From Bacteroidales bacterium (GTDB lineage Bacteria > Bacteroidota > Bacteroidia > Bacteroidales > UBA932), in contig JAFRRW010000011.1 of assembly GCA_017427885.1 (NCBI GenBank), forward strand, positions 186,001-250,000: a stretch of DNA of 64,000 nt. Reading direction: 5' to 3'. Of this stretch, positions 9,778-35,961 are shown in pieces. Below the pieces are notes generated by a model. It did not search any database, was not told the DNA's origin, and saw nothing but the letters and a program-made list of their open reading frames with translations. A program made the position numbers and the translations under genes. Numbering within the stretch: position 1 is the first letter of the stretch; each line of letters starts with the position of its first letter.

Positions 9778-10386
9778 CTAGTTATAACCGTTGAACCGTT
9801 CCGAAGTCGCCTGCCCTTCTTCCGAAATCCCTTCGCGTTTGAACACCTTGACAAAGGTCTTGAAGAATATCTTCACGTCAAGCCAGAAACTCAGGTGATC
9901 CACATAGTAAATGTCGTATTCCAGACGTTTCGTGAACGATATCGCATTGCGTCCATTTATCTGGGCCCAACCGGTGATGCCCGGCCTGACCTCGTGACGC
10001 CGCATCTGCTCCGGCGAATAAAGGGGAAGGTATTCCACCCGCCAGGGCCTAGGACCTATGAAAGCCATGTCTCCTTTCAGGATATTGATCAACTGAGGCA
10101 GTTCGTCTATGGACAGGCTCCGGACAACCCTTCCCACCTTCGTCAGCCTGTCTGCGTCCGGCAGCAACTCCCCGCTTTCATCCCTTTCGTCGGTCATGGT
10201 CTTGAACTTAATGACCTTATATATCCTGGCGTCTTTCCCGGGCCTTTCCTGCAGGAAGAAGGCCCCGGCACCCTTGTTGGCAAAATGCAGGAGAACCGCC
10301 ACGATGACGATTATCCATCCGACCAGAATCAGTCCGATGATGGCCCCGATTATGCCAAAGAGGCGTTTGAAGAAGTGTTTGTACAT
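9778..10386 (-). CDS. PglC-like phosphoglycosyl transferase (initiating sugar transferase)
   Basis: At 202 residues this is the minimal monotopic phosphoglycosyl transferase. It moves a sugar-1-phosphate from a UDP-sugar to undecaprenyl phosphate at the inner membrane, starting the repeat unit. A single hydrophobic re-entrant helix spans residues 8-33. The catalytic Asp94-Glu95 dyad lies in RSLSIDELPQL, followed by GDMAFIGPRP and RPGITGWAQINGRN. PglC itself is about 200 residues and uses UDP-diNAc-bacillosamine. With PglF, PglE and PglD homologues nearby, a 4-amino-4,6-dideoxy HexNAc is the likely first sugar. The gene is 1 base from the preceding one and 3 from the next. Confidence 0.92.
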   Translation of the reverse strand: MYKHFFKRLFGIIGAIIGLILVGWIIVIVAVLLHFANKGAGAFFLQERPGKDARIYKVIKFKTMTDERDESGELLPDADRLTKVGRVVRSLSIDELPQLINILKGDMAFIGPRPWRVEYLPLYSPEQMRRHEVRPGITGWAQINGRNAISFTKRLEYDIYYVDHLSFWLDVKIFFKTFVKVFKREGISEEGQATSERFNGYN

Positions 10387-15294: not shown

Positions 15295-15297
15295 ATG

Positions 15298-17843: not shown

Positions 17844-18964
17844 CGCTTCTCGCTTATTACCTTTTCAAAAATACCTTCCAACTGTTTTCCGATTGCCTCG
17901 GAAGAGAACCTGTCCTGGCAGTCCTGTGCAATCCGGGCCCGGTCATACGTCTTATGATACTTATACATCCGGAGTATTGCATCTGCCAACTTGGACACAT
18001 TGTTGACCGGGCACAGCAGCCCGTTCTTCTCCGTAAGGAAATCCCTCGCGCCTCCGCAATCCGTAGCAATTACCGGCAGGCCGCAGGCCAGGGCCTCAAT
18101 GGCAGCCACCCCGAATGTCTCAGAACGGGAAGACATCACATACACGTCGCTCTGCTGCAGCATCCCGATGACACCTTCCCGGCTCTTCCTGCCACACAGG
18201 CGGATGTTCTTTCCTAAATGAAACTGGTCTATCATCCCCTGCAGTCTCGCATGTTCGCTGCCGCCGCCGATGATGTCCAAAGACCAGGATTCATCAGGAA
18301 GCTGCAGCTGGGTGAACGCCTTGATAAGGTTGTCGAATCCCTTGACAGGAAGGAGATTTCCGGTAGAGACAAAACGGACCTTCCTGTCATTACGCTCCTT
18401 GGGGACATAACGGAATTCCCGGCCGACCATATTGTTCACCACTGTCGAGTCGATCCCGAAGTTCTTCAAGATATTCTGCCTCAGGGTTGAGGAGACGGTC
18501 AGGAGGCGATCTACATCCTTATATGTCTTTCCTGCCCAATTCTTGATACCTCTTTTTATTCTTTCATAACCCAATTCACTCCAGTGTTCGATGCCAACGA
18601 CAGGAATGCCATATTCCATTTTCACAGGCAAAACCATTGATGTATTTCGCAAATAATGAGAATACAACACGTCAGGAACGCCTTCTGTCTTTATTACCCT
18701 TTTAAATAGAAGAGAAAAAAGCTTTTTCCTTATTCCCACTGTCCTCAATACTGCACCAGCAAAAAGGTTATAATGAGGAATATCCCCGTGCATTGTGCTT
18801 GAAATGCCAAATTTCCGTCTATATAATCTAAACCTGGAATCTACGCTGAGGACAACGACAGTATGGCCCAACTCTCTCATAGCTAACGCCTGGTCACGTT
18901 CAAAATTCCCCCATTGAGGCTCCCTCTCCGACGGCCAACCACGTGACACAAAGAAAATCTTCAT
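17840..18964 (-). CDS. GT4-family glycosyltransferase
   Basis: A 374-residue GT-B retaining glycosyltransferase. The N-terminal domain starts MKIFFVSRGWPSEREPQWGN, FVSTGNLLPVKGFDNLIKAF opens the C-terminal domain at about 200, and the donor-binding EX7E motif is SETFGVAAIEALACGLPVIA (about 285-304). It is cytoplasmic and acts on the lipid-linked repeat unit. This is the only protein in the operon I can place confidently in a Leloir glycosyltransferase family. The donor is not readable; dTDP-rhamnose or a UDP-hexuronate would fit the supplied precursors. It overlaps both neighbours, by 4 bases and 1 base. Confidence 0.93.
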   Translation of the reverse strand: MKIFFVSRGWPSEREPQWGNFERDQALAMRELGHTVVVLSVDSRFRLYRRKFGISSTMHGDIPHYNLFAGAVLRTVGIRKKLFSLLFKRVIKTEGVPDVLYSHYLRNTSMVLPVKMEYGIPVVGIEHWSELGYERIKRGIKNWAGKTYKDVDRLLTVSSTLRQNILKNFGIDSTVVNNMVGREFRYVPKERNDRKVRFVSTGNLLPVKGFDNLIKAFTQLQLPDESWSLDIIGGGSEHARLQGMIDQFHLGKNIRLCGRKSREGVIGMLQQSDVYVMSSRSETFGVAAIEALACGLPVIATDCGGARDFLTEKNGLLCPVNNVSKLADAILRMYKYHKTYDRARIAQDCQDRFSSEAIGKQLEGIFEKVISEKR

Positions 18965-20148
18965 TATTGTCTTGTTTTAGAATGGTTCAACGATTGCAAA
19001 TGCGCTGTTTCTGCCATTTTACCGTCCTTTAACGCTGCTACCATCGCCCAGAACATAACCAGGTAAAGGAAATAAGAAACATATAGCACCAGCTGGCTCA
19101 CCATGGCCATCACGGCAAAAATACATATGGACATGGTGTATGGAATGAAGAATTCCGTCTCGTTATGATAATGGTACCACCATTCTTTCACCACATAAAC
19201 CCAGAGTCCCAAATACACGATAAGGATCAGTATTCCATAATCATATGTAATCTCCAGAAACTCATTATGAGCAGAAATCTCCAAAAGGGAATCCCTGTCG
19301 ACGGCATTGTGCCCGTGACCAAGGATTTTATCGGCATTGGATGACTTCATTATCATCTCAAGCGTAACAGTATATATCAACTCCCTGCCATTAGAGATAT
19401 CTCCTTCGTTGTCAAAACGCGAACCCAGATACCCTCCCGAGACACTGTCCACGATCTTAAAAGATCCGTAAGCCGCTGCCAGAACCAAGATGGACACCAA
19501 AAACGCGACTCCTTTTTTCGCACCGCCTAACAAATACTTGGCACCAATGGCGACCCAAAACAGCACAATGGCAAGCATCATGGACCTTTTCATGGACAAG
19601 ACCGCAATAAACGTCATCACAATCAATATGATGTTTCTCTGACGTTTATTATTTGTTATCAAAATGACAGGGGCGGTAAGACTTACAAAATAGACCATAT
19701 TCGTCTGCCCGCCAAATCCAATCAATATCATTGCACTGAAAAGTGCAACTAAACCGAAGGCCAGAAATACGTAATAGATTCTACGGAAACCCGATAACAA
19801 CCGCCTGTCCGCCCTGATGAATAAATAAGTCGACTCGAAAAATAAAGGCCAGGCCAGACATTTGGCATAATTGCCGATGGCCGCATGATTGTAAACCAGG
19901 ACGACCAGCATCATTATCTCCCAAATGGCACATATTATATGTATTCCCTTGTCTTTCTTTTTGAATTTAGGAGACGTCAATATCAGTATTACCGACAATA
20001 ATTCAATTCCTACCAATGCGATATATAATAAGAGTCCGGACTGCTGAACTCCATGATACCTGTTGTTAAACCAGAAAACGGCCGTTCTCCAGAAAAAAAC
20101 CAACAACAGCAGGATGTATACTTTATATATCTGACGAACCTGTTTCAT
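18964..20148 (-). CDS. Wzy-like O-antigen/polysaccharide polymerase
   Basis: The 394-residue product is an integral membrane protein with about ten to eleven hydrophobic segments and one large periplasmic loop at roughly 230-300. That loop contains SRFDNEGDISNGRELIY and SAHNEFLEITYDYG, the arginine-containing and HNxxL motifs shared by Wzy polymerases and WaaL ligases. In an operon with a Wzx flippase it is most likely the polymerase that joins lipid-linked repeat units. The start is ATG at 20148; the codon just upstream is TTG. The gene ends on the first base of the glycosyltransferase start. Confidence 0.85.
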   Translation of the reverse strand: MKQVRQIYKVYILLLLVFFWRTAVFWFNNRYHGVQQSGLLLYIALVGIELLSVILILTSPKFKKKDKGIHIICAIWEIMMLVVLVYNHAAIGNYAKCLAWPLFFESTYLFIRADRRLLSGFRRIYYVFLAFGLVALFSAMILIGFGGQTNMVYFVSLTAPVILITNNKRQRNIILIVMTFIAVLSMKRSMMLAIVLFWVAIGAKYLLGGAKKGVAFLVSILVLAAAYGSFKIVDSVSGGYLGSRFDNEGDISNGRELIYTVTLEMIMKSSNADKILGHGHNAVDRDSLLEISAHNEFLEITYDYGILILIVYLGLWVYVVKEWWYHYHNETEFFIPYTMSICIFAVMAMVSQLVLYVSYFLYLVMFWAMVAALKDGKMAETAHLQSLNHSKTRQ

Positions 20149-20176
20149 CAAAAAGGCAAGTTAGAAAAATCCCCCT

Positions 20177-20977
20177 TTACTTATAGTATGCCACAATAGA
20201 ATGTTTAGAAACCTGTTTTTCCTCGGGAGGCATCTGCATATAGTCTCCATAACAGACACTCAGCCACTTGTCATAATCCTTAATAGCGGAAAAAGACATC
20301 CCCTCGAATTCAACCGAAGCGTACTCTTCAAACAGGGAAGACGGGTAGATGTCGTACGGATTGTCAACGGAAACCGTAATACAGACAGAATCTGAGTTAT
20401 CATTACGATACTTGGTCTGCAACTGACAAATCTTTTTCTGAATGACCCTCCTGGGTACGGGGATAAGGATGATGGCCAACCTCTTCAGAATCCTGAACAA
20501 GCCCTTTTCAGACCTGAAGACATTCAATATCCCGGTATTCTTGGCAGTATTGATGCTCATCAGCCGTTTAATCCTTTTCATCCAGGGAATAAACGCAGAG
20601 CTGTCTTCCGGGACACGGTCAACCACAAAAACATCTATGAAAAGACCATAAGACCTCTTGATGGTCTGTTTATAGAAAAAGAATGTCTTGGGGTCATAAA
20701 CCTTCGCCATTCCCGTAGGATGATCCTTATTGGTCGAAAGATCCGAAAAAACGAAACGATCGGAGTTATATGTTTCCCGGAAACGGTCAAAGTCGTTTCT
20801 GGGCATAATGATATCTATATCATCATCCCACGGAATAAACCCCTTGTGCCGAACCGCGCCCAACAATGTACCGTATGCCAGACTGTAACGGATACCGTTA
20901 ATCCGGCAAAACCCGGCAACATCTTTAAGAATCTCAAATGGGATCCTCTTATAATCTTCCTGTGATATTTCCTTCAT
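20177..20977 (-). CDS. LicD-family phosphotransferase
   Basis: A 266-residue LicD protein. The diagnostic region SLAYGTLLGAVRHKGFIPWD followed by DDIDIIMPRNDFDRF (about 32-66) contains the nucleotidyltransferase-fold GTLLG and DDDID motifs. LicD proteins move phosphocholine, or related phospho-alcohols such as glycerol phosphate or ribitol phosphate, from a CDP-activated donor to a glycan. A TagD-like CDP-alcohol synthase is encoded at 32119-32523 and is the obvious donor source. The ATG at 20977 was chosen because the in-frame codon before it is TTG. It still begins 29 bases inside the preceding gene, a sign of translational coupling. Confidence 0.9.
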   Translation of the reverse strand: MKEISQEDYKRIPFEILKDVAGFCRINGIRYSLAYGTLLGAVRHKGFIPWDDDIDIIMPRNDFDRFRETYNSDRFVFSDLSTNKDHPTGMAKVYDPKTFFFYKQTIKRSYGLFIDVFVVDRVPEDSSAFIPWMKRIKRLMSINTAKNTGILNVFRSEKGLFRILKRLAIILIPVPRRVIQKKICQLQTKYRNDNSDSVCITVSVDNPYDIYPSSLFEEYASVEFEGMSFSAIKDYDKWLSVCYGDYMQMPPEEKQVSKHSIVAYYK

Positions 20978-23063
20978 TCTCAATATGTTCTCCTATCGAA
21001 TCCATCAAATACCTCTTGGAACGGCTCGCATAATCCTCTAGTTTCGGCCGGACGACCTGGTAATCAATATCCGGCAACGGGGCGGAGTCTCCGTGTTTGA
21101 TATAACGTTCTCCCAAATCCAGCACCTTTAACAGGGATTCCACCCGGTCCGACCTCTTACCCATCCCGACGGCGAAGAACTGCTTCTCGAAGATGATTGA
21201 CATCGCGACACCGTGGAACGAATTGCTGACGACGTATTCGGCATTCCTAATGAGAGACAGGAATTCGGGTACGGACGCCGTGTGGGAATAGCGCTTTCCC
21301 AAATACCTAATGCCGTATTTCTTTGTAATTTCAATGATTCGCAGGCCGTGTGCCTTTCCAAGCCGGTCGGCGAAACGGCTGCTCTCATTGGAATTCAGAA
21401 GGTTATAGAACAGGATGTATTTCCTGCCTTTAACTTTTTTCTTCGCCTCATCGGCGACCTTGCCCCATTGTTCCCTGCTCAGGAGAAACACCGGATCGAC
21501 GACGACCTCGGAAACGAATCCGAGGGAAGCGAGAGTCTCCTGTAAAGAAGACTCCCTGACGGAAAGGGCCTCGAATGCAGTCAGACGGCTTTTGATGTCC
21601 TCCTTCTCCTTGTCGGAGAGATTCGACGGTCCCATACTGGCAGCATAAGCGATTTTACGGGCCTGGACGTTCGGAGAGCCGAAATACCAGAAATCCAGTC
21701 CCTTATGGCCGGGCAGATTCTGCTGGCGCCATATCTGGTCGCTTCCGTAAACGACACAGTCGAAGCAGTCGCAGACATCTGAATCATCGACATACCGGGG
21801 CCGGTCTGCCAGACCGAGATATCCGGACATGAAGTCCTTCATCACGCATTTACGCTTGGACCGGGGAATACCCCAAACCGTTGCCAGATACAGGCATACC
21901 GCTTTCGTATAAATGCTTCCGGCCTTGAATCTCTTCCAGGGGAATATCTTGAAAAAGTCCGAATGGTAGTCCGGCCAATAGTCGACGAAATCGACGTCGA
22001 ACCCGAGGCCCTTCAGGTATGTCCTTAAAGCAAAAGCCTGAAGGAGAGCTCCGTAGTTCTCAGCGCGGTGATATGTAAGGATTCCGACTTTCATCTTGTC
22101 AGTCCGGGAGGTCTTTTCCTCGATTTCAATTTTCAGGTTTCTGAACGCCTTGCCCATAAAGGCCTTGTACTCCTCGAATCTGTTTTCTGCCTCGTCGTCC
22201 CGCCAGATGAAGGTGTTGATGTTCTTGTCGGAAATGTAACCGTCCAGGTTGCGGCAGCCATAAAACCTCAACAGCGTCTTCTTCAGCGCATTCCCATAAG
22301 GTGCGATTCTCAACAAGGAAGCCAGTTTGGAAATACCTGTGGCAACGAGACTCTTCAGGTTCCTCCTGATACGTATCTGCGCGAACACGCTGCCAAGGTT
22401 CTTCCCCCCTTGTTCCTGATGGATTTTCCTGTATTTGACAGAAGCCTCGGCTTTTTCCTTTTCTGCTGCGATATCCTGAGCCTTCGTCAGGTCCAACTCC
22501 AGCGAGAGGACCACACCCCGGATCTGTTTCCTTTTAAAAACAGAGGAACGCTTGCTGTATTCCATCTGTTCTTTTGTCAGGTCATCGACATTTCCCTCAG
22601 TATTCAGGTAGCGGACGCTCCGGAGCATTGAAGATATGGAACAGCCGAAACAGCCGGCATTGTTGACTGCGGCAGAAGCTACGGTACCGGGCAGACCGAC
22701 CAGTCCGCAAAAACCGGCATAACCCTTTTCCAGGCACTCCTTCGCCAGCCTGACCACACTGACACCGCAATCGCAAACCAACCTGTCCCCTGTTATTTCA
22801 TAGTTGTTTACCTTTACCGTTGAAACGATCACGTCCGGATTGCAGTCTTTATGATAGAACAGATTCGATGTATATCCGACAACATCGAATTCGACTTTTT
22901 CCGCATAAAGGAAACGGCATACAGTCTCAAGCTGGGCCAAACCGTCCGGCACGATCCAATACTTGCACATACCGCCGGTACGGATCCAGGTCTTCCCCGT
23001 CAAGGGAACGTCCTTCTCGAAGGAAACTGAATTAGCAAGTAAGAAAGACTCAATGACACTCAT
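20949..23063 (-). CDS. MurB-like FAD reductase fused to polysaccharide pyruvyltransferase
   Basis: This 704-residue protein joins two enzyme families in one frame. Residues 1-320 resemble UDP-N-acetylenolpyruvylglucosamine reductase (MurB): FAD-binding region VVGYTSNLFYHK and CGLVGLPGTVASAAVNNAGC, Arg172 in SKRSSVFK at the place of MurB's catalytic Arg, Ser225 in NLGSVFAQ at the place of the proton-donating Ser, and glutamates near 313-315 at the C-terminal position. Residues 324-700 form a PF04230 pyruvyltransferase domain starting MKVGILTYHRAENYGALLQA, with YGSDQIWRQQN and VSNSFHGVAMSIIF, the family's usual signatures. PF04230 enzymes attach pyruvate from PEP as a ketal; MurB reduces an enolpyruvyl ether to a lactyl ether. 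Separate translation from an internal ATG at 22094 cannot be excluded. Confidence 0.85.
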   Translation of the reverse strand: MSVIESFLLANSVSFEKDVPLTGKTWIRTGGMCKYWIVPDGLAQLETVCRFLYAEKVEFDVVGYTSNLFYHKDCNPDVIVSTVKVNNYEITGDRLVCDCGVSVVRLAKECLEKGYAGFCGLVGLPGTVASAAVNNAGCFGCSISSMLRSVRYLNTEGNVDDLTKEQMEYSKRSSVFKRKQIRGVVLSLELDLTKAQDIAAEKEKAEASVKYRKIHQEQGGKNLGSVFAQIRIRRNLKSLVATGISKLASLLRIAPYGNALKKTLLRFYGCRNLDGYISDKNINTFIWRDDEAENRFEEYKAFMGKAFRNLKIEIEEKTSRTDKMKVGILTYHRAENYGALLQAFALRTYLKGLGFDVDFVDYWPDYHSDFFKIFPWKRFKAGSIYTKAVCLYLATVWGIPRSKRKCVMKDFMSGYLGLADRPRYVDDSDVCDCFDCVVYGSDQIWRQQNLPGHKGLDFWYFGSPNVQARKIAYAASMGPSNLSDKEKEDIKSRLTAFEALSVRESSLQETLASLGFVSEVVVDPVFLLSREQWGKVADEAKKKVKGRKYILFYNLLNSNESSRFADRLGKAHGLRIIEITKKYGIRYLGKRYSHTASVPEFLSLIRNAEYVVSNSFHGVAMSIIFEKQFFAVGMGKRSDRVESLLKVLDLGERYIKHGDSAPLPDIDYQVVRPKLEDYASRSKRYLMDSIGEHIENEGNITGRL

Positions 23064-23075
23064 CCCGACAAATGC

Positions 23076-24278
23076 TTACTTTCTGCCCAAACATTTTTTT
23101 ATAATTCTCTTGAAGCCGTTTTGCAGAATCAGTTTCCTGAACATCCGTTCCGGTTCCGGATCCTCTTCATCTGCGATGAAACTGATATCCCGACTCCTGA
23201 GCAAGGTTTTGAATTCTCGAGTTGTAATATAACCCTTATACCAGTCATCCAGGCACATCCGCTCATTTAAATAAACGGCCTTATCCTTCACCATTACAGA
23301 GGTGTCAATCGATTCACCATTAATCGCATGAACGAACATTGCAGGCAGGTTCACCCCCGATCTGGTATATGCATATCCCGATCCTCCATACCTGAAATTC
23401 ATCTCGCAGAAATAAAACCTGCTTCCGCTCCGATAGAAATCAATGTCGAATATGCCCACATAACTGGTCTCCCGGACAAAAACCTTGAATGACTCAAGCA
23501 AATCTTCAAACCCTTCAATCGGAATGATCTCCCCTTTTATCGCCACTCCGTAATGAGTCCCGGATGCAAGAGAACTGATTCGGAGGATTCCGGGGATATG
23601 GACCGTCGTTCCGTCGGACACGCCCATCAGGGCAAATTCCTGGTCAATGTGTTTGTACTCCTCAACCAGGATCGATATCGTTGATGACCTCCGGACAAGG
23701 GCATCGATTGATTTCCGCAGTTGCTGTTCCGTGTCACATCTTCCAAGTCCCGTCTTCGCACCGACAAGAGTTGCCAGGGGCTTAGGGAAACACGGATATG
23801 ACAATCCGGAAGGAATACGATAATCACCATCAGCCACTTCTATAACCTCTCCTCTTGCCACATTCAAACCCACTTGCCTGGCCAATTCTTTTTGGCGGAG
23901 CTTGTTCATCCAAACCACAACCGCCCCCGGAGTATGGTCTATATGGGGAAACAAGAAATGCTCTTCAAGCTTTTTCTGGTTCAGATCTATTGCCGCGGCA
24001 GAAAAATCGCTGTCAGGGAAAAGGATAGCCTTCGGACCTTCCTCAACACATTTTTCAAGCAATAAGGCAATCAACCTATCTTTATCAGGAGGGCAATAAT
24101 GGATATGGTCGACATACTTGCTATAACTATCGATGGGACGTGTCGTATCAGGCTTTCCATTCCGTTTATTGAGCATAATCACTATCACGGTTACCTCGTA
24201 ACCGGCGCGGCCCAATGCCCGTATCACTCCCAGCCTGGAAGTGTAGCCGTGACCTATGACTATTACCCTCTGTTTCAT
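23076..24278 (-). CDS. ATP-grasp ligase (carboxylate-amine ligase type)
   Basis: A 400-residue ATP-grasp protein. The N-terminal domain starts RVIVIGHGYTSRLGVIRALG. The grasp domain has CFPKPLATLVGAKTGLGRCD (nucleotide lysine region), ILVEEYKHIDQEFALMGV and the metal-binding end FDIDFYRSGSRFYFCEMNFR with FRYGGSGYAY. These enzymes make an acyl-phosphate from a carboxylate and join it to an amine. Related proteins accompany CapA-like proteins in surface-polymer loci. It overlaps the first capA-like gene by 4 bases. Likely role: amide-linking an amino acid or amine to a carboxyl on the glycan or its precursor; the substrate is unknown. Confidence 0.85.
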   Translation of the reverse strand: MKQRVIVIGHGYTSRLGVIRALGRAGYEVTVIVIMLNKRNGKPDTTRPIDSYSKYVDHIHYCPPDKDRLIALLLEKCVEEGPKAILFPDSDFSAAAIDLNQKKLEEHFLFPHIDHTPGAVVVWMNKLRQKELARQVGLNVARGEVIEVADGDYRIPSGLSYPCFPKPLATLVGAKTGLGRCDTEQQLRKSIDALVRRSSTISILVEEYKHIDQEFALMGVSDGTTVHIPGILRISSLASGTHYGVAIKGEIIPIEGFEDLLESFKVFVRETSYVGIFDIDFYRSGSRFYFCEMNFRYGGSGYAYTRSGVNLPAMFVHAINGESIDTSVMVKDKAVYLNERMCLDDWYKGYITTREFKTLLRSRDISFIADEEDPEPERMFRKLILQNGFKRIIKKCLGRK

Positions 24279-25426
24279 TTATCTGTCCCCTTCAAATCAT
24301 CCAACAAGGATTCGAGCCCCTCTATTACTATTTCCCTATTCTGTTCAGACCGTATAGAATGAAGCATGAACAGCATCTGCCAGCGAGAATAACTCTTCTC
24401 TATCAACCTGTCACGGTAACAGGGAGAAAAACGCCCGATTACTTTATATAACCAGTTCTTCCCTTTATATGCACGAAGATAAAACGGCAGTTCCTGTCGG
24501 CAGTATGTCTTAAACTGTTCTTGTAAAAAAGCTTCATCATCAATACGGGCAGAACGTTCATCGAAAGCCGAGAAATCCTGCTCGTCATCATACACGACCC
24601 TGTCTTCGACCGCCCGGACGAGGTGTTTCTTCACTGTCGGCTTCCCCTCTTCAAACTGCAACTCTATGACCAGACCGGTATCCGTAAATTCATTGTTAAA
24701 TGAACGGAACAAAAAGTTCCCTTGCCCATAAAGCAGATATGCTCCTTTATAATACTCCTCGGAACCTATACAATGCGTATGTTGGGATAAAACCATATTT
24801 GCGCCGGAATCGACCATCCTGTGGAATCTCCGTCTGGTTTGAGGAGAAGGATAACGGAACTTTTCCGTTCCTCCATGATATATTACTATGATGAAATCAA
24901 CTCTCTTTTTCAATTCCTCCAGGTCGTGGCAGACCACCAGTTCATCAAAGAGAAAGGCACCAGGCTTATTCTCTCCCGGAGCATTATACATTGTCTCGGC
25001 AACATTGTAAAGTCCAATCCTAAAGTCATTTACTAAAAAAATGACATGCCTTTTGATGGTACTGATGTCACCGGCACCCAGATGACTGATTCCCGCATCA
25101 TCGAGTATCTTCATCGTATCATACACTCCTTGACTTCCGGCATCCGTAATATGATTGTTAGCCAATGTGCAGCAGTCGATACCCAAAGCCTTGTAAGCAT
25201 TGACAGTCGTTGTCGGTGCGTACAGAGCCGGGCCTGTCTTCTCGCATTTTCCGGGATTGTCTGTCAAGGCGCCTTCAAGATTGCAGATACGGTAATCAGC
25301 AGAAGCGAACAGAGCCGATATCTTATCTCCGAAAAGGTATGACATGTCTCCCGTATTGAACTTAGTGAAGTTCGAAGGAACAGGGAACAAGTCTCCCGCA
25401 ATAATAACACTGAATTGTCTTTGCAT
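24275..25426 (-). CDS. CapA-family protein, copy 1
   Basis: The 383-residue protein matches the CapA/PgsA family (metallophosphoesterase fold). Motifs in order: FSVIIAGDLFP, CNLEGALTDNPG, LANNHITDAGSQG, VIYHGGTEKF and LSQHTHCIGSEEYY, which are the metal-site stretches of the family. There is no signal peptide or membrane anchor, unlike CapA of Bacillus poly-gamma-glutamate systems. A C-terminal tail of about 100 residues is rich in charged residues. CapA is tied to assembly of poly-gamma-glutamate and other surface polymers, but its reaction is unsettled. It is flanked by an ATP-grasp gene (4-base overlap) and a GNAT gene. Confidence 0.88.
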   Translation of the reverse strand: MQRQFSVIIAGDLFPVPSNFTKFNTGDMSYLFGDKISALFASADYRICNLEGALTDNPGKCEKTGPALYAPTTTVNAYKALGIDCCTLANNHITDAGSQGVYDTMKILDDAGISHLGAGDISTIKRHVIFLVNDFRIGLYNVAETMYNAPGENKPGAFLFDELVVCHDLEELKKRVDFIIVIYHGGTEKFRYPSPQTRRRFHRMVDSGANMVLSQHTHCIGSEEYYKGAYLLYGQGNFLFRSFNNEFTDTGLVIELQFEEGKPTVKKHLVRAVEDRVVYDDEQDFSAFDERSARIDDEAFLQEQFKTYCRQELPFYLRAYKGKNWLYKVIGRFSPCYRDRLIEKSYSRWQMLFMLHSIRSEQNREIVIEGLESLLDDLKGTDK

Positions 25427-26014
25427 CTAGTCTTTTTTTAACGGAAAACGACTGATTGCCTTAAACTTGGATATATGGTATCTAACCCAACAATGTATAG
25501 GGGAAAAAGATCGGTCTCTGAGCCATTTTACCATAACTATGTTATAATGATCTCCGCTCTTAGCCCTGAAATAATGAACTGGCCTGTATCCCATTTTTTT
25601 TGCAATCCTGATTCTATGTACATTCTTGCAATGGGTGTCGAAGACCATCACATTATATCCTGCACTTATTGCCAAACTTTCCCTCTTGCTATCCAAAGCA
25701 CGAAAGATCCCGCGCCCTGCATATTCTGGAATAATGCTGTCAAAACAGGCATAAGCATACGGACCGTTGGCATACCAAATCTTACCCACCCTGTCACCAA
25801 GAGCCGCCGTCCCCACCAACTTTTCCCCATCCAGAGCCACAAGCATAAACCCATTATCACCTAAATGTCCTATTATTCTTTCTTCCGGCCATTGGTAATG
25901 ATACATTTTTATCCCCCTCTTACGATTGGATGAATGTGCATCATATAGGCATTGCCTGATGTCATTCCAAGACACCCAGTCAGGCTTTTCTATAATGGTT
26001 ATGTTTTTATCCAT
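25427..26014 (-). CDS. GNAT-family acyltransferase
   Basis: A 195-residue protein starting at the ATG at 26012-26014; an earlier in-frame start would overlap the preceding gene and adds unconserved residues. A GNAT fold is suggested by FMLVALDGEKLVGTAALGDR, the acetyl-CoA loop PEYAGRGIFRALDSKR, and HCKNVHRIRIAKKMGYRPVH. The basic C-terminal 40 residues (SFSPIHCWVRYHISKF) could be a membrane-associating tail. Similar proteins appear beside ATP-grasp genes in polysaccharide loci. It may acylate the amine that the ligases handle, or act as an aminoacyl transferase. Confidence 0.75.
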   Translation of the reverse strand: MDKNITIIEKPDWVSWNDIRQCLYDAHSSNRKRGIKMYHYQWPEERIIGHLGDNGFMLVALDGEKLVGTAALGDRVGKIWYANGPYAYACFDSIIPEYAGRGIFRALDSKRESLAISAGYNVMVFDTHCKNVHRIRIAKKMGYRPVHYFRAKSGDHYNIVMVKWLRDRSFSPIHCWVRYHISKFKAISRFPLKKD

Positions 26015-26027
26015 CAATAACAGGCAA

Positions 26028-27104
26028 TTAATCCGGGAACCAAGTGTTCGGTCTTGGCCATAGCTCACGGATGATTCTTTCCGTATATTCGCCCATGCCG
26101 GACTTGAAAGCTGACTGGCTCAGACCCGGATTCGTATTAAACTCCAGCAGCACAGGTTCTCCATCCTCTTGTATGGCGATATCCCAACCGAGCAAATCGA
26201 AGAATGGTGATTTCATATGAAGCCGCTTCACCATCTCTATAGCTTTATCATAAGATGGCAATTCATACCCTTCCAAAATCACTCCAGTGTCCGTTTTCTC
26301 AATATCATCCTTGCTGAATCCGCCAAATGCTTCCTTACCAAGTCTTCCCTCTTTATCTATAGTTGTGCTAATGCCTCCGGCACACTGATTATCGACTACA
26401 GATCCGTTCCTTCCAATGCGGACAACCGAATATACAATCAATACCTCCATGCCTGAGCGGTATGATAGTATGCGCATCGTATTTACGGAGGAAGGGTTCA
26501 ATGCTGCCATTCTAGGATGCTGCCGGACACATTCTTGAACCAAAAAGTCTTTTTTATACTCCTTGAACAGCTGGGCTATCGTCTTTCCGTTCAAATCAGT
26601 TATTCCATCCTTAGCACTGAGAAGTTGAACCCCATGCCCTTCAGATTCACGGGCAGGTTTAATAATTACCTTTTCAAGATTTTGACATAGTTTGACCGCC
26701 TCCCCTTCCGACACTGGTTTTCCTTCATAATAGTAATACCCGTTTATGTTTTTGAGAATAGAATGAACGACGTTTTCCCCAGGGAATAAAAAATCGCACA
26801 TATTCTTGTCCCCGAATATTCCGCCATAGCGCTTAATATTTGCCCTTGGCACTAATTCACAGTGATAGAAATTGTTCGGGACATACTCCTTAGTAAATAC
26901 ACCGGTGCGAGAATAGAAATATTCATGACAATAAAGCGGGACCTTTCGGCCTATCATACTCTTATAAAAATCATTAACCTCTTTTTTCTGCGTTTTTGTC
27001 AGTTTTCTATGGTTTTCAAGATCCTTGAAGTTTTTAGTAATTCGCACTTTCCACTTCCTGAGCTCCCGTTTTTTATTGATAATTGTTACTATCCTCTTAA
27101 ACAT
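26028..27104 (-). CDS. sugar-transfer-associated ATP-grasp protein, copy 1
   Basis: A 358-residue ATP-grasp protein of the kind annotated as sugar-transfer associated (PF14397-like). The nucleotide-binding lysines fall in VIIKPARESEGHGVQLL; LVQECVRQHPRMAALNPSSV and NTMRILSYRSG form the middle; and FDLLGWDIAIQEDG plus VLLEFNTNPGLSQSAF is the metal-binding end. The N-terminal 60 residues are basic and may touch the membrane. It differs strongly from the next ATP-grasp gene, so the two probably have different substrates. It sits 13 bases upstream of the GNAT gene and 25 after the next ATP-grasp gene. Confidence 0.85.
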   Translation of the reverse strand: MFKRIVTIINKKRELRKWKVRITKNFKDLENHRKLTKTQKKEVNDFYKSMIGRKVPLYCHEYFYSRTGVFTKEYVPNNFYHCELVPRANIKRYGGIFGDKNMCDFLFPGENVVHSILKNINGYYYYEGKPVSEGEAVKLCQNLEKVIIKPARESEGHGVQLLSAKDGITDLNGKTIAQLFKEYKKDFLVQECVRQHPRMAALNPSSVNTMRILSYRSGMEVLIVYSVVRIGRNGSVVDNQCAGGISTTIDKEGRLGKEAFGGFSKDDIEKTDTGVILEGYELPSYDKAIEMVKRLHMKSPFFDLLGWDIAIQEDGEPVLLEFNTNPGLSQSAFKSGMGEYTERIIRELWPRPNTWFPD

Positions 27105-27129
27105 AATCGTACTCTTTAGCGTTTAATAA

Positions 27130-28305
27130 TCAAGAAAACTTGGCTATCATTCTTCTATCCTTTAGAGGCAACCTCCAATTCCCTGTCGCATAACGGTTCA
27201 CATTCCCTCCCCAGTACTGTTTCCAAGCCAAATAGCAATCCCGGATTTCATTACGCCAACCACGCCGTATGAAATACTGGCCGGTCCGATCCCAAAAATC
27301 GTTGACCTCAATTACAACAGGACCATCTTCTGTTATTGCGATATCCCAACCTGCGGCCTTACAATAAGGGAAAGCCTGCTGGAAACGTTTCACCTCTTCC
27401 TTGATTAACTGCCAGTTTTCAACGAAGACACCGTTCAATTGAACACCGCTATCAGGGTGCTTGTCGATTTCTATTGTCTTTCTCCAACCATTAAATAAGA
27501 CAGCATCTTTTATTTCACCGGTTTCAACATCGATACACGCATCTACGTTACCGCCTTCGCCCGCATTGTCAACACATCTGCCAGGACTGCCAATTTTCAC
27601 GAAGGTTGCTATAATCTTTGCAGTTCCATCAGGATACAAAGTGGTCATGAAACGCACCGTGTTGACAGACGTCTCATTGAAATCTGCAAACTGCTTGGTT
27701 TGATGGACCACGCTCTCAAAGATCAAAGGTTCCTTGCCAAGTATCTCACTCAACCTGATAACACTCCCATCAAAACGGGTGAGCATGGCATCTCTCTCCT
27801 CGAACTGAATGTCTTTGATCACCCAAACATTGTCACCGTGCGAGCTCTCCGTAGTTTTTATCACGCAAGATTCAATCCCCTTGGACTCCAAGATATGCAA
27901 CACGCCCGACAGGTCTCCCGCACATTCATCGCTTGCAATATAACGTGCCTCCGGCTGATAATAACAATACAGTTCGGACTTCCGCACGCCTGTATTCTCC
28001 AGTGTTTTGTGAGCCAAATACTTATTGCGGGCAAGAGAATAATACTTTACAGGATTCAAATAATCCAAATAGAAGCGCTGCTCATTAAGTCCAAGAAAAG
28101 ACTGACGGAATCCCTCATCTCGTTTCTCAAATTCAAAATCAAAGTACTCATCAGTTGTCAAGCCCTTAGACTTAAACAATTTTTTATAATCAGCGACAAT
28201 ACGTCTTCTTCCTTGTTTACCGGAGTCAATGGTCTTCGCCCAATTCCTCAAACTCCGGTTCCCCAGAAGAAGGCTTACCAGACGTTTTAAGATTTTATTT
28301 ATCAT
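27130..28305 (-). CDS. sugar-transfer-associated ATP-grasp protein, copy 2
   Basis: A 391-residue relative of the preceding protein, sharing its layout: basic N-terminus (LKRLVSLLLGNRSLRNW), SCVIKTTESSHGDNVWVIKD, FNETSVNTVRFMTTLY, DNAGEGGNVDACIDVETGEI, AAGWDIAITEDGPVVIEVND. The ending EVNDFWDRTGQYF replaces the EFNTNPG form of copy 1. Substrate unknown. Its stop-side neighbour is copy 1, and its ATG overlaps the stop of the second capA-like gene by one base, repeating the ATP-grasp/CapA pairing seen at 23076-25426. Confidence 0.83.
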   Translation of the reverse strand: MINKILKRLVSLLLGNRSLRNWAKTIDSGKQGRRRIVADYKKLFKSKGLTTDEYFDFEFEKRDEGFRQSFLGLNEQRFYLDYLNPVKYYSLARNKYLAHKTLENTGVRKSELYCYYQPEARYIASDECAGDLSGVLHILESKGIESCVIKTTESSHGDNVWVIKDIQFEERDAMLTRFDGSVIRLSEILGKEPLIFESVVHQTKQFADFNETSVNTVRFMTTLYPDGTAKIIATFVKIGSPGRCVDNAGEGGNVDACIDVETGEIKDAVLFNGWRKTIEIDKHPDSGVQLNGVFVENWQLIKEEVKRFQQAFPYCKAAGWDIAITEDGPVVIEVNDFWDRTGQYFIRRGWRNEIRDCYLAWKQYWGGNVNRYATGNWRLPLKDRRMIAKFS

Positions 28306-29404: not shown

Positions 29405-30868
29405 TTAATTCCTTTTAAATTTTCCAAACACTAACGGTATCGTCTCTCTGACATATTTGAAACTCTCCATTTTCATCAACATCGACCCTCCAAGATAGAT
29501 TATGACAAAGACAAATAACTGTATGATTGCAAGAGGATACATGTTCAGGACAGAGAAATAATCACCTGCAAGGAATGCAGCTATGAACGCGATCAAAGAC
29601 AAAACTACAATTGGCAGAAGGTCCTGCATCTGTCTCGTAATCTTATAACCAATATATTTATGAACCTGAAATGAATTGATAAAATATATCAACCAGGATT
29701 GTAATACCATTCCGACTAGAAGTCCCCATATGCCGCCAAGAATAAGGCCTGAGACGACGAATAAAAGACCGACCACTCGTTTTACAACTGTCCAGGTAAA
29801 CATTTGTTTACTTTTTCCTACAGCAGCTACTGCAAGATAATTAACCCCTTGCAAACTAATGGCAATACCGGCTATACATAAAATCTGGAAATATGGTACG
29901 CTCTCCAACCACCTTTCAGAATAAAGTAACACGAAAATGGGTTTGGCAAGCAAAAAAAGTAATGCCATTATAGGGAAAGTAAGATATGCTATCGAAATGG
30001 TTATTCGCTTTATAACATTGATTAGCACCGGCAAATCGTGTTGGCATTCCGCATAAAGAGGATATGTAACCTGTCCCATAACACCGGAGATACTAGTGGA
30101 TGCCAGTTCCTCAGTACTTTTCGCCTTTGAATAATAACCCATCGTTGACGAATCATACACCCTCCCTATCAACAAACCTTGAATTTGATTACCCAACTGA
30201 TTTAGCAGGTTCGTCAAAAACATATAGAAGCCAAAGGAGAACAATTCCTTAAATGACTTCCAAGAAAAGACCAGCTTTGGACGCCACTTGATAAAAAACC
30301 AAAATACGACGGCCGGGATAGCAGCTGTTATCAGATGTTGCACTACCAAAGCCCATACACCAAACCCTTTATACGCCAAGACAATGGTTACGCTCAGAGC
30401 GATAATGGACGTTGTGATAGTTACTATGGACAGTACTTTGAAATTCAGTTGCTTCTTGAGTTGGTTCCGTTGAACAATGTTGAAAGCATAAATGAACAGT
30501 ACCAATCCCTGAACACGCAACACGTCACATAAAAGCGGTATGTCATAGAATCGTGCAATTGCCGGGGCACAGAAATACAATACCGCATACATTAACAAGG
30601 CCACACCAAGATTCCAATAGAAAATAGTCGAATAATCCTCCTGGGTGGGCCTTTTTTTCTGTATAAGCGCGGAGCCGAAACCTCCGTCGATAAAAGCTTC
30701 CGCAAGCACCATAAATATGGTCAGCATCCCGATGCAGCCATAATCATATGGAGTCAGCAGACGCGCCAGAATTATTCCGGAAATGAACTGGATTCCCATT
30801 GCAGAATACTTCTGCAACGCTGCCCAGGCCATTCCAGAGGCGGCTCTCTGTTTCAACGACTTAGCCAT
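29405..30868 (-). CDS. Wzx-type polysaccharide flippase (MOP superfamily, WzxC-like)
   Basis: A 487-residue integral membrane protein with about 12-14 hydrophobic helices. It starts MAKSLKQRAASGMAWAALQK and continues with SGIILARLLTPYDYGCIGML, the typical opening of WzxC-like flippases, and DGGFGSALIQKKRPTQEDYS follows. It would turn the undecaprenyl-linked repeat unit across the inner membrane for polymerisation by the Wzy-like protein at 18964-20148. It is clearly AT-rich: 21 of the 60 bases at 29461-29520 are G or C by hand count. Confidence 0.92.
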   Translation of the reverse strand: MAKSLKQRAASGMAWAALQKYSAMGIQFISGIILARLLTPYDYGCIGMLTIFMVLAEAFIDGGFGSALIQKKRPTQEDYSTIFYWNLGVALLMYAVLYFCAPAIARFYDIPLLCDVLRVQGLVLFIYAFNIVQRNQLKKQLNFKVLSIVTITTSIIALSVTIVLAYKGFGVWALVVQHLITAAIPAVVFWFFIKWRPKLVFSWKSFKELFSFGFYMFLTNLLNQLGNQIQGLLIGRVYDSSTMGYYSKAKSTEELASTSISGVMGQVTYPLYAECQHDLPVLINVIKRITISIAYLTFPIMALLFLLAKPIFVLLYSERWLESVPYFQILCIAGIAISLQGVNYLAVAAVGKSKQMFTWTVVKRVVGLLFVVSGLILGGIWGLLVGMVLQSWLIYFINSFQVHKYIGYKITRQMQDLLPIVVLSLIAFIAAFLAGDYFSVLNMYPLAIIQLFVFVIIYLGGSMLMKMESFKYVRETIPLVFGKFKRN

Positions 30869-32554: not shown

Positions 32555-33433
32555 TCATTCCCCTTCCGCCAGCCTCATCAGGTACTGCCCGTACTGGCTG
32601 TTGAGCATCTGACCGGCGGAACGGCGGACCTGGGCCGGGGTTATCCAGCCCTTCTCGAGGCCTATGCCTTCGAGGCAGGCGACCATCAGGCCCTGGCGTT
32701 TCTCGATGGTTTCAATATAGGCCGTGGCCTCGGCGAGGGAATCGTGGGTGCCGGTGTCGAGCCAGGCGAAACCCAGGCCCAGGGTCTCCACCTTCAGTTC
32801 CCCCGCCTCCAGGAACCTCTGGTTGACGGTGGTTATCTCAAGTTCTCCCCTGGCGGAAGGCCTGACTCCCTTGGCGACCTCGACGACCTTGTTGGGATAG
32901 AAATACAGGCCGACCACGGCATAGTTGCTCTTGGGCCGGGCAGGTTTCTCTTCTATGGAAAGGCAGTTGCCGTCCCTGTCGAATTCGGCGACGCCGTAGC
33001 GCTCGGGGTCGTTGACCCTGTAGCCGAAGATGGTGGCCTTCCCTTCGGTCTCAGCCGTCTTCACAGCATTGTCCAGAAGGGAGGAGAAACCGCTGCCGTG
33101 GAATATGTTGTCACCTAGGACGAGGCAGACGGAGTCGTCGCCTATGAACTTCTCGCCGATGATGAAGGCCTGCGCGAGGCCGTCGGGAGAAGGTTGTTCG
33201 GCATATTCGAAACGGACGCCGAAGTCGGAGCCGTCGCCCAGCAGCCGCCTGAAAAGGGGAAGGTCTTCCGGTGTGGAAATAATCAGTATGTCCCGGATCC
33301 CAGCCTGCATCAGCACGCTGACGGGATAATACACCATCGGCTTGTCATATACGGGAAGCAGCTGCTTGCTGATTCCTTTCGTTATGGGATACAGCCTCGT
33401 GGCCGCTCCCCCGGCGAGAACTATTCCTTTCAT
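32555..33433 (-). CDS. rmlA: glucose-1-phosphate thymidylyltransferase
   Basis: A 292-residue RmlA. The signature [20 protein letters not shown] is at residues 8-27 with YDKPMVYYP after it; [15 protein letters not shown] and [13 protein letters not shown] are further family stretches. It makes dTDP-glucose from dTTP and glucose-1-phosphate, the first step to dTDP-L-rhamnose. It overlaps rmlD by 4 bases. All four rhamnose genes follow one another in the order B-C-D-A in the direction of transcription. Confidence 0.97.
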
Positions 33434-34320
33434 CTGTTTTCGTTTATCATTTTAGCAAGGCACCGTCTCAAAGAATCCGTCCAATGCGGGATGGCGAGGC
33501 CGAAAGTCTCTTTTATCTTGGTCTTGTCGAGAACCGAGTAGGCCGGACGCCGGGCTTTGGTGGGGAATTCATCGCTGTGGCAGGGGATGATGTCACAGGC
33601 GGTATGGCCGGAATAATCGGCGATCGCCTTGGCAAAGTCGTACCAGGAGCAGACACCTTCGTCCGTGTAGTGGTAGATGCCCTCTGCAGGAACTGTGGAA
33701 TCCAGGATTGTCATTATCGCTCCGGCGAGGTCCACGGCGTAAGTGGGGGTGCCGACCTGGTCGGAAACGACCTTCAACTGAGGCCTGGTGTCCATCAGGC
33801 GGAGCATCGTCCTGACGAAATTCTTTCCGGATTCGCTGTAAAGCCACCCCGTGCGGATTATAATATGGCGGCAGCCGGATTCCTGGACGGCCTGTTCTCC
33901 GTGGAGTTTCGAAAGGCCGTAAACTCCCAGCGGCGCCGCAGGATGGTCCTCGCGGATGGGAGCATCGACCGGTTCGCCGCCGAAGACATAATCCGTGGAA
34001 ATATGTACAAGCAGACCTCCGGCCTCCTTCATCGCGGCTGCAAGTATCCCCGGGGCCTCCCCGTTTATCCTTTCCGCAAGGGCGGCATTGTCCTCGGCCG
34101 CCTCGACGTCGGTGTAGGCCGCGCAGTTGACAATCACCTGTATCCCTTCCTTCTTCACCTTATCCCTCACCGCGCCGGCATCGGTGATGTCCAATCCCCC
34201 GATACCCTCTTCCGGAACGGAGGCAACGTCGGTGAACACATACCTGTCCCTCCTTCCCTTTGCAAGAAGCCTCAACTCACTGCCTAGCTGCCCGCAGGCA
34301 CCCGTCACAAGCACGTTCAT
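33430..34320 (-). CDS. rmlD: dTDP-4-dehydrorhamnose reductase
   Basis: A 296-residue SDR of the RmlD type. It has [18 protein letters not shown] at the N-terminus, [10 protein letters not shown], and the catalytic Tyr/Lys pair in [12 protein letters not shown]. It carries out the last step, NAD(P)H reduction to dTDP-L-rhamnose. The length is normal. It overlaps rmlC and rmlA by 4 bases each. Confidence 0.96.
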
Positions 34321-34895
34321 TCCGCGTAGTAATCTATGGCGTAATCAAACAGTTCGCCGGCATCTTTCAGCCTCGGAGCGGCCTTGTCCCTTTCGGAAAG
34401 AATCAGCCCACCTTCCGGCACGGGCCATTCAATTCCCAGCTCTGGATCGTCCCAGGCAATTGATCCTTCCGCTTCCGGGGCGTACGGACTGTCGCATTTG
34501 TACTGGAACAGGGCCGTCTCGCTGAGCACCACAAAACCGTGGGCGAATCCTCTCGGCAAGAACACCTGGCGGTGGTTTTCCCCGCTGAGTTCGACCATCA
34601 CATACTTTCCGAAGGTAGGGGAACCTCTCCTGATATCCACGGCCACATCCATCACGGTGCCCTCGACGACCCTCACGAGCTTGCCCTGTGCGGCCCTCCC
34701 CTTCTGGAAATGAAGCCCCCTCAGCACTCCCCGGCGGCTTCTGCTCTCGCTATCCTGGACGAACTTCACGGGCATGACCTTCCCGTCGAAATCCCTCTGC
34801 GACCACGATTCCATAAAATACCCGCGGCAGTCGCCGAACACCTTCGGTTCGATGACCACCACCCCGGGAATCGCAGTTTCAATCACATCGATCAT
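34317..34895 (-). CDS. rmlC: dTDP-4-dehydrorhamnose 3,5-epimerase
   Basis: A 192-residue cupin-fold RmlC. RRGVLRGLHFQKG contains the catalytic histidine, FLPRGFAHGFVVLSE the second cupin strand pair, and YKCDSPYAPEAEGSIAWDDP the catalytic tyrosine region. It epimerises C3 and C5 of dTDP-4-keto-6-deoxyglucose. It lies 1 base from rmlB and overlaps rmlD by 4 bases. Confidence 0.96.
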   Translation of the reverse strand: MIDVIETAIPGVVVIEPKVFGDCRGYFMESWSQRDFDGKVMPVKFVQDSESRSRRGVLRGLHFQKGRAAQGKLVRVVEGTVMDVAVDIRRGSPTFGKYVMVELSGENHRQVFLPRGFAHGFVVLSETALFQYKCDSPYAPEAEGSIAWDDPELGIEWPVPEGGLILSERDKAAPRLKDAGELFDYAIDYYAE

Positions 34896-34896
34896 C

Positions 34897-35961
34897 CTAT
34901 CTTCCTCCGTACATCTGCTCGTAATACTTCATATAATCCCCGCTGGTGACATTATCCAGCCAGTCCTGATTGTCGAGGTACCAGCGGACGGTCTTTTCGA
35001 TGCCTTCCTCGAACTGCAGGGACGGCTCCCAGCCGAGTTCATCCCGGAGCTTGGTGCTGTCGATGGCATAGCGCAGGTCGTGCCCTGCCCGGTCGGTGAC
35101 GAAGGTGATCAGGTCCCTGTCCTCGCCGGGAGCGCGGCCAAGCAAACGGTCGGTCGTATCTACCAGCAGTTTGACAAGGTCTATGTTCTTCCATTCGTTG
35201 AACCCGCCAATATTGTAGGTCTCGCCGGTACGGCCGTTGTGGAAGATGGTGTCGATGGCCCGCGCGTGGTCTTCGACGTACAGCCAGTCGCGGACATTCT
35301 CCCCCTTCCCGTAAACCGGCAGGGACCTGCGGTGGCGGATATTGTTGATGAAGAGAGGGATGAGTTTCTCCGGGAACTGGTAAGGGCCGTAGTTGTTGGA
35401 ACAGTTGGTAACTATGGTGGGAAGGCCGTAGGTGTCGTGGAAGGCCCGGACGAAATGGTCGCTGGAGGCCTTGGCGGCGCTGTAAGGGCTGTGAGGCTGG
35501 TACCTGGTCTCTTCGGTGAAAAGACTGCCGTCCATCTCCAGGGCTCCGTACACCTCGTCGGTGGAGATATGGTAGAAGCGCTTGCCTTTCCATTCCCCGT
35601 TCCAAACCTCTCTCGCCGCCTGCAGCAGGCTGAGGGTGCCCATCACATTGGTCTGCGCGAAAGTGAAAGGATCCTTTATGGAACGGTCCACGTGGCTCTC
35701 GGCGGCAAGATGGATTATGCCGTCGATGCGCTCCTCCTTCATCAGGGCCAGCACTCCCTCGAAATCGCAGATATCCATCCTGACGAACCTGTAGTTCGGC
35801 CTGTCCTCGACATCCCTGAGGTTGGCCAGGTTGCCGGCATAGGTCAGCTTGTCCAGATTGACGATCCTGTAATCCGGATATTTGTTCACGAAAAGACGGA
35901 CCACGTGGGAGCCGATGAAACCGGCGCCTCCCGTAATCATTATCCTTCTTCTGTATTCCAT
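34897..35961 (-). CDS. rmlB: dTDP-glucose 4,6-dehydratase
   Basis: A 354-residue extended SDR. The cofactor loop MITGGAGFIGSHVVRL is at about 8-23, HISTDEVYGALEMDG carries the catalytic Asp-Glu pair, YSAAKASSDHFVRAF carries Tyr and Lys, and RTGETYNIGGFNEWKN is a typical later stretch. It forms dTDP-4-keto-6-deoxyglucose. The gene is GC-rich like its neighbours to the right: the 60 bases at 35041-35100 contain 40 G or C by hand count. Confidence 0.96.
   Translation of the reverse strand: MEYRRRIMITGGAGFIGSHVVRLFVNKYPDYRIVNLDKLTYAGNLANLRDVEDRPNYRFVRMDICDFEGVLALMKEERIDGIIHLAAESHVDRSIKDPFTFAQTNVMGTLSLLQAAREVWNGEWKGKRFYHISTDEVYGALEMDGSLFTEETRYQPHSPYSAAKASSDHFVRAFHDTYGLPTIVTNCSNNYGPYQFPEKLIPLFINNIRHRRSLPVYGKGENVRDWLYVEDHARAIDTIFHNGRTGETYNIGGFNEWKNIDLVKLLVDTTDRLLGRAPGEDRDLITFVTDRAGHDLRYAIDSTKLRDELGWEPSLQFEEGIEKTVRWYLDNQDWLDNVTSGDYMKYYEQMYGGR

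Follow-up and report, generated by a model that had tools for sequence, protein, structure and literature searches.

In a 64,000-nucleotide stretch of a Bacteroidales genome (assembly GCA_017427885.1, contig JAFRRW010000011.1, positions 186,001 to 250,000; hereafter the window), we detected a gene at 20949-23063 on the minus strand whose product joins a MurB-like reductase domain, of a type that binds flavin adenine dinucleotide (FAD), to a pyruvyltransferase domain of family PF04230. Comparison of sequences and gene neighbourhoods suggests that the MurB-like and PF04230 pair makes lactyl (1-carboxyethyl) ethers (probability about 0.72), as what would be a two-step lactyl-ether synthase placed in a surface polysaccharide pathway. 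This function had been proposed in a first-pass annotation of the window, and the comparison supports it: the pairing recurs across phyla with fusions in both domain orders, a fusion sits at the place of CpsG in an Enterococcus faecalis-type cps operon whose capsule bears lactic acid on galactofuranose (Galf), and the reductase is swapped on a 68%-identical pyruvyltransferase part, with FrhB homologues as frequent neighbours of related proteins.

The open reading frame (ORF) starts with ATG, encodes 704 residues and contains no internal stops. Pfam places FAD_binding_4 at residues 37-159 (E 4.3e-11, above the curated cut-off) and PS_pyruv_trans (PF04230) at residues 336-633 (E 8e-39, 134.7 bits against a gathering score of 25.3), confirming that one ORF holds both domains; MurB_C has no Pfam match in the protein. 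The NCBIfam MurB models match best at residues 9-229, all with scores under their equivalog cut-offs, and the NCBIfam CsaB model matches weakly at residues 467-636. All 13 matches obtained with the whole protein against PDB sequences (phmmer) are MurBs, with 4pyt and 1hsk at the top, and a profile built from seven relatives matched 4pyt at 1.4e-45 among solved structures. The N-terminal domain is thus of the MurB type by sequence, as first annotated.

The MurB active-site positions named in the first-pass annotation are also retained: Arg172 and Gly224-Ser225 fall on the MurB motifs in alignments, and Glu313, the C-terminal Glu, is invariant across a seven-row alignment. Catalysis by E. coli MurB relies on these Arg, Ser and Glu positions. 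Among 38 aligned MurB sequences (14 linked to PF04230, 5 linked to MurA and 19 presumed housekeeping, two of them identical), Arg172 is kept throughout, and position 225 is Ser or Thr in all 14 PF04230-linked rows. Asn-Pro follows GS-F-x in 18 of the 19 presumed housekeeping MurBs (17 of the 18 distinct ones) and in none of the 14 linked to PF04230. The Asn of this motif presumably contacts the uridine diphosphate (UDP) substrate in MurB. With Arg, Ser and Glu kept and Asn-Pro lost, the PF04230-linked MurBs look to have preserved the reductase chemistry and altered the UDP site. Like MurB (UDP-N-acetylmuramate dehydrogenase), then, the window protein has FAD_binding_4 and the Arg, Ser and Glu; unlike it, the protein has neither MurB_C match nor Asn-Pro and is fused to PF04230. 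A housekeeping role for the PF04230-linked MurBs was rejected because all eight genomes tested own a second MurB with MurB_C; the window genome encodes a separate MurB of its own.

We found both parts together in 14 loci, comprising three fusions, seven adjacent pairs and four pairs one or two genes apart, and spanning Bacteroidota, Alphaproteobacteria, Bacillota, Fusobacteriota and one archaeon. The fusion reported by the first-pass annotation is confirmed, but the combination is not unique to the window protein, the single chain in this form comes from one metagenome-assembled genome, and relatives have two overlapping genes instead. A MurB-like gene precedes an overlapping PF04230 gene in G201 (4 nucleotides), G283 (32 nucleotides) and Colimorpha merdihippi (1 nucleotide), an order that equals the domain order of the window fusion. 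PF04230 comes first in G738 (12-nucleotide gap), Novosphingobium (4-nucleotide overlap), Natrinema pellirubrum (17-nucleotide overlap) and Cetobacterium (13-nucleotide gap). One gene intervenes in G016 and two in G053, the two parts are two genes apart in Butyrivibrio XPD2006, and a flippase gene sits between them in L. brevis; the Novosphingobium, Natrinema, Cetobacterium and L. brevis pairs were found by tblastn of plasmid records. The Natrinema pair adjoins a flippase and aglF/aglM. Haloarchaea make no murein, so the Natrinema MurB-like protein is not a spare peptidoglycan enzyme.

As controls, 80 other MurB loci were scanned 1.5 kb to either side, a range too short to catch pairs two genes apart, and none had PF04230 (gene picking recovered the MurB gene itself in 72 of them); none of 10 Bacillota MurB loci from 6 genomes had it within about 6 kb. 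Duplicated Bacillota MurBs were accordingly rejected as lactyl genes, and a MurB duplicate alone is no sign of lactyl function. A profile search of 400 genomes of the genus, many of them incomplete, identified the polysaccharide-locus MurB type in four (274-450 bits; next match 94 bits), of which the three other than the window genome have shorter frames and not the window fusion; among 150 relatives, no second match spans both halves of the fusion. The MurBs of G217 and G098 (112 and 110 bits) were dropped as probably housekeeping, with no PF04230 on their 6.5- and 3.7-kb contigs. In a set of eight loci, L069-L072 look housekeeping and L073 has no PF04230, and the MurB matches of L151-L153 (141-149 bits) were left out of the comparison.

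The plasmid survey gave 49 and 46 matching records in overlapping sets, from which 19 regions were chosen by MurB match and hence non-randomly; a Gemmobacter region was added by its PF04230 match. Among 20 MurB loci (the 19 regions and an E. faecalis-type contig), 6 have PF04230, 7 have a MurA match and 7 have neither, and two of the seven MurA-match loci (Paenibacillus and Riemerella) look housekeeping. The MurB of L167, missed by the profile and the gene picker, is annotated and matched by Pfam. A Burkholderia cenocepacia plasmid MurB (L156) was set aside for its different gene context: at L156:5133-6846 it overlaps a truncated-looking carbamoyltransferase gene, followed by a NUDIX gene. A table of PMC8443796 gives murB as the K31-specific serotyping gene of Vibrio parahaemolyticus, possibly another capsule-locus MurB.

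In the MurB tree, the PF04230-linked proteins fall into three groups: the window, G201, G283, Colimorpha, G738, G053 and Novosphingobium (100/99); Natrinema, G016, Butyrivibrio and Cetobacterium (99/98); and L. brevis (a long branch), E. faecalis and Paracoccus (98/92). The MurA-linked MurBs form a single group (100/100). A single origin of the PF04230-linked MurBs is possible. Because the window fusion and the E. faecalis and Paracoccus fusions belong to different groups of this tree and have opposite domain orders, we infer at least two separate fusion events.

Of the alternatives, the one that survives best concerns the single chain itself, which may be an assembly or sequencing artefact, the real arrangement being two overlapping genes working together. 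In G201, the nearest relative, the MurB-like protein ends in EIEERI-stop and the next protein starts MKIGILTYHRAEN; the window junction reads EIEEKTSRTDK-MKVGILTYHRAEN, at the very point where the G201 genes overlap, and a Met (ATG at 22094) is retained as the first residue of the PF04230 half. A TGA in one other frame overlaps this ATG, so that a one-base indel would split the fusion and restore the two-gene arrangement, and the fusion is present in 1 of the 400 genus genomes. The TGA is itself uninformative, since any ATG followed by A yields TGA in another frame. Against an artefact, the 24 minus-strand genes at 9.7-36 kb are tightly packed and open, which disfavours a high indel rate, and the same domains are fused elsewhere. 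An artefact is unlikely but by no means negligible, and the fused chain is probably genuine in this genome; the functional reading of the pair is the same in both cases, and an artefact is compatible with a lactyl function.

Another fusion is encoded on OR846590.1 (106630-123271, L154), an unverified contig deposited as Enterococcus phage Efs 1-1-1 with gene content like an E. faecalis chromosome. The gene order is glycerophosphotransferase, two family 2 glycosyltransferases (GT2), an 817-residue protein, a 135-residue protein, GLF, and the ATPase and permease of an ATP-binding cassette (ABC) transporter; by gene content, this would be the E. faecalis cps operon. Pfam assigns PF04230 (14-295), FAD_binding_4 (546-673) and MurB_C (714-805) to the 817-residue protein. 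The E. faecalis cps operon holds EF2489, cpsG, described as a 'MurB family protein' (PMC2766626, in the part available), and the fusion gene occupies the cpsG (EF2489) place, a correspondence based on gene order in L154 and not on the sequence of EF2489 itself. We saw no cpsF-like gene in the L154 operon; type 5 E. faecalis strains are described as lacking cpsF (PMC1899230, accessible text). The capsule carries a lactic acid substituent at C3 of Galf according to nuclear magnetic resonance (NMR) data reported in the available part of PMC3060912, and our reading of this substituent as an ether comes from the 1-carboxyethyl references that the paper cites. Like the window protein, the L154 gene product (putative CpsG) combines PF04230 and a MurB-type FAD domain on one polypeptide in a surface-polysaccharide operon; unlike it, PF04230 comes first, MurB_C is found, about 250 residues separate the domains, and its MurB belongs to a different tree group. 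The E. faecalis-type operon also has glf and an ABC exporter, whereas no GLF was detected among the 30 window proteins scanned. A Paracoccus aestuarii plasmid (L158) encodes an 845-residue fusion with the domain order of the L154 fusion, near glf; its annotated start omits the beginning of PF04230. A MurB/MurC fusion described in Verrucomicrobium (PMC4803751, accessible text) also joins MurB to another enzyme, unlike the window protein in that it belongs to the peptidoglycan pathway and its partner is MurC.

The reductase attached to PF04230 is exchangeable. Gemmobacter fulvus encodes an 871-residue PF04230 fusion (L173:4971-7586) that ends in a nitroreductase domain (Pfam) and shares 68% identity with the Paracoccus fusion over 500 aligned positions (blastp); its C-terminal domain matches PDB nitroreductases such as NfrA2 (E 5.6e-7). 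The PF04230 tree places Paracoccus (MurB) and Gemmobacter (nitroreductase) as sisters (100/99) and joins both to E. faecalis (100/100). This tree has many open forks and long branches that meet (L. brevis with Butyrivibrio), and leaves out WcaK and the MurB-linked PF04230 of G053; we used it only for the E. faecalis/Paracoccus/Gemmobacter group.

Homologues of a third reductase family, FrhB (detected by phmmer), adjoin 16 of the 28 PF04230 genes that are related to the window domain, with both genes of every pair on one strand: one pair is fused, 12 overlap or lie at most 4 nucleotides apart, and three are separated by 76, 246 and 1024 nucleotides. The fused case, in the same-genus genome G047 (L034:7615-9696), has 693 residues with PF04230 and FrhB_FdhB_C (Pfam) and also provided one of the three FrhB phmmer queries. 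FrhB was found at none of 90 MurB loci, and its label is barely more clustered on the PF04230 tree than shuffled labels (70 of 500 shuffles as low). A 638-residue ORF at L035:8472-10388 carries PF04230 at residues 341-600, and Pfam matches nothing in the 340 residues before it. The nitroreductase fusion and the FrhB pairs and fusion are like the window protein in coupling PF04230 to a flavoprotein-type oxidoreductase, and unlike it in the reductase families, which are unrelated; we have seen no characterised example of either combination. On five alphaproteobacterial plasmids (L159, L160, L167, L168 and L169), a MurB paralogue adjoins a MurA paralogue, with glycosyltransferase genes beside three of the five. 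The partner of MurB is thus either an enolpyruvyl transferase or PF04230, and that of PF04230 belongs to one of three reductase families. The exchange of MurB for nitroreductase, together with the frequent FrhB neighbours, points to a reductase that acts on the group transferred by PF04230.

The PF04230 half was also compared with ketal pyruvyltransferases (residues counted from Met324). WcaK of E. coli is a ketal-type pyruvyltransferase. His294 and Arg180 are invariant in 10 of 10 sequences; in a non-significant match (E 0.15), His294 aligns with H339 and Ser292 with R337 of Pvg1p, and the Ser292 position is Arg in WcaK, whose alignment reads R-L-H. In CsaB, R148, H308 and K328 are needed to bind phosphoenolpyruvate (PEP), and R306 is equivalent to Pvg1p R337 (PMC10435577 and PMC6801904, in the text available). 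Arg180 would be the counterpart of CsaB R148. Like CsaB, Pvg1p and WcaK, therefore, the window half belongs to PF04230 and keeps the PEP-binding His position (CsaB H308, Pvg1p H339) and an invariant Arg; unlike them, it has Ser at the Pvg1p R337/CsaB R306 position and a joined reductase. Our guess is that Ser in place of Arg may steer the reaction towards an enolpyruvyl ether instead of a ketal. The motif S-x-H is present in 16 of 17 reductase-linked PF04230 rows (N-M-H in the other) and in 26 of 27 related PF04230 proteins, counting both L024 matches, L030 being without a pattern match.

Taken together, the PF04230 half would take PEP and move its enolpyruvyl group onto one sugar hydroxyl without closing a two-oxygen ketal, the acceptor sugar probably being lipid-linked by analogy with CsaB and with WcfO, a characterised ketal former. 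The FAD of the MurB-like half would be reduced by the nicotinamide cofactor NAD(P)H, and this half would then convert that enolpyruvyl ether by reduction into a lactyl (1-carboxyethyl) ether, which is the muramic-acid chemistry of MurB on another acceptor. In this scheme an enolpyruvyl intermediate is inferred, as are the cofactor, the acceptor, the product and its stereochemistry.

A different view would give the two halves independent functions, with PF04230 making a ketal and the MurB-like domain reducing some other substrate, for example the MurA product to supply extra UDP-muramic acid. The MurA and MurB paralogue pairs in glycosyltransferase loci fit such a view, as they suggest that MurB copies can serve sugars without PF04230. 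However, no MurA lies beside the PF04230-linked MurB in the six loci that the scan covered (L154, L155, L157, L158, L165 and L166, the Bacteroidales loci being left out), Asn-Pro is absent from all 14 PF04230-linked MurBs, a haloarchaeon carries the pair, and MurB can be swapped with nitroreductase or FrhB in a like place, which is best fitted by a reductase acting on the PF04230 product. We consider independent functions improbable. A MurB-like domain reduced to an FAD-fold remnant without catalysis, merely binding or positioning the acceptor, would accord with a C-terminal part too diverged for Pfam MurB_C, and is highly improbable given the conservation of Arg172 and of Ser/Thr at 225 and an unrelated flavoprotein able to take the reductase place.

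Lactyl groups are reported on surface glycans of Klebsiella, Proteus and Salinivibrio, in the sources accessible to us. Our literature search, which mostly did not extend to subscription journals, found neither an assignment of enzymes for glycan lactyl groups nor a published proposal of a lactyl-ether pathway through PF04230 and a reductase. In papers on Bifidobacterium 35624 and E. coli LL004, considered as lactyl examples and rejected, carboxyethyl occurs solely in the reference lists of the text available. Klebsiella K37 is reportedly the earlier glycan with 4-O-[(S)-1-carboxyethyl]-D-glucuronic acid, and K22 is 'another glycan containing' it according to a title in reference lists. In the accessible text of a survey of 79 Klebsiella capsule types, four of them (K8, K22, K37 and K66) have pyruvyltransferase genes but no pyruvylated capsule; its inventory of cps genes includes nitroreductase (n=2) and coenzyme F420 hydrogenase (n=1), with types unnamed (PMC4616057). 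This pattern is consistent with a lactyl function, the link of the reductase genes to K22, K37 and K66 being unconfirmed. The type of reductase might set the (R) or (S) configuration of the lactyl group.

Several points weigh against a lactyl-ether function. To our knowledge, release of an enolpyruvyl ether has not been described for any characterised PF04230 enzyme, nor a lactyl group for Klebsiella K8. All 10 related PF04230 proteins whose surroundings (1.5 kb) showed no reductase also carry S-x-H, which was rejected as a lactyl-synthase marker for this lack of specificity; the equivalence of Ser292 and Pvg1p R337 depends on the E 0.15 match and the WcaK alignment. Whether Novosphingobium keeps the C-terminal Glu is unclear from the 38-row alignment, the G053 pair seems damaged (its PF04230 partner has Asn-Met-His, and a stop in frame lies close to the start of MurB), and the exact window fusion was seen in that one metagenome-assembled genome only. 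The K8 pyruvyltransferase gene without pyruvylation is unexplained (PMC4616057, in part). For E. faecalis, the available text of PMC3060912 speaks of lactic acid substitution, not of an ether, and its mutant data concern cpsI rather than cpsG.

The window contig has 589 kb, in an assembly of 1.87 Mb that is 81% complete. From the 30 window proteins scanned, the cluster around the fusion gene looks like a Wzx/Wzy-type polysaccharide locus by gene content, with Bac_transf, Wzy_C, a flippase, dTDP-rhamnose genes, a glycosyltransferase, LicD, three ATP-grasp proteins (one weak) and two PGA_cap proteins (Table 1).

Table 1. Features of the fusion gene and its polysaccharide cluster, in window coordinates
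Feature	Position	Strand	Basis
Fusion protein, MurB-like FAD reductase domain then PF04230 pyruvyltransferase domain	20949..23063	-	ORF, Pfam, NCBIfam, PDB sequence searches
MurB-like domain, residues 1-322; Arg172, Ser225, Glu313 kept; no Asn-Pro after Ser motif	22098..23063	-	Alignments
PF04230 domain, residues 324-704, from retained Met codon at 22094; Ser-Phe-His where Pvg1p and WcaK have Arg-Leu-His	20952..22094	-	Pfam and alignments
Junction EIEEKTSRTDK/M	22091..22118	-	Frame comparison
LicD-family gene; 35-base overlap with fusion gene 3' end if listed TTG start is right	20177..20983	-	ORF, Pfam
ATP-grasp protein, weak match; 12 bases upstream of fusion gene	23076..24278	-	ORF, Pfam, NCBIfam
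Wzy/O-antigen ligase-like protein	18964..20151	-	Pfam
Wzx-type flippase	29405..30868	-	Domain scan
Initiating sugar-phosphate transferase (Bac_transf)	9778..10386	-	Domain scan
dTDP-rhamnose genes: nucleotidyltransferase, RmlD, RmlC, dehydratase	32555..35961	-	Domain scans

Just upstream of the fusion gene (23076-29402) lie the three ATP-grasp proteins, the two PGA_cap proteins and a GNAT protein. By analogy with the Mur ligases on muramic acid, these might amidate a carboxyl group, perhaps that of the lactyl substituent. The PGA_cap proteins (24275-25426 and 28305-29402) matched the lasso-peptide epimerase MslH model far under its cut-off. The cluster also contains an alanine dehydrogenase/PNT-like protein (30882-32090). 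AMP-binding ligase-like, KAS III-like and SDR genes are grouped at 13497-16692, which suggests synthesis of an unusual acyl group for the glycan, and a cytidylyltransferase-like gene (32119-32523) shares the cluster with the LicD gene, which suggests a phosphocholine- or glycerophosphate-type decoration.

The fusion and its relatives provide a concrete two-enzyme hypothesis for the lactyl groups of glycans. More broadly, and tentatively, at slightly less than even odds, a large S-x-H branch of PF04230 would consist of enolpyruvyl transferases with interchangeable MurB, FrhB or nitroreductase partners that add lactyl ethers to the surface glycans of bacteria and archaea. If the two-enzyme hypothesis holds, MurB has a role beyond peptidoglycan, seemingly extending to an archaeon, and PF04230 need not mean a pyruvate ketal, which affects the annotation of polysaccharide loci. 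In the broader reading, the S-x-H branch would represent a muramic-type chemistry independent of MurA, explaining the lactyl ethers of many capsules and O-antigens.

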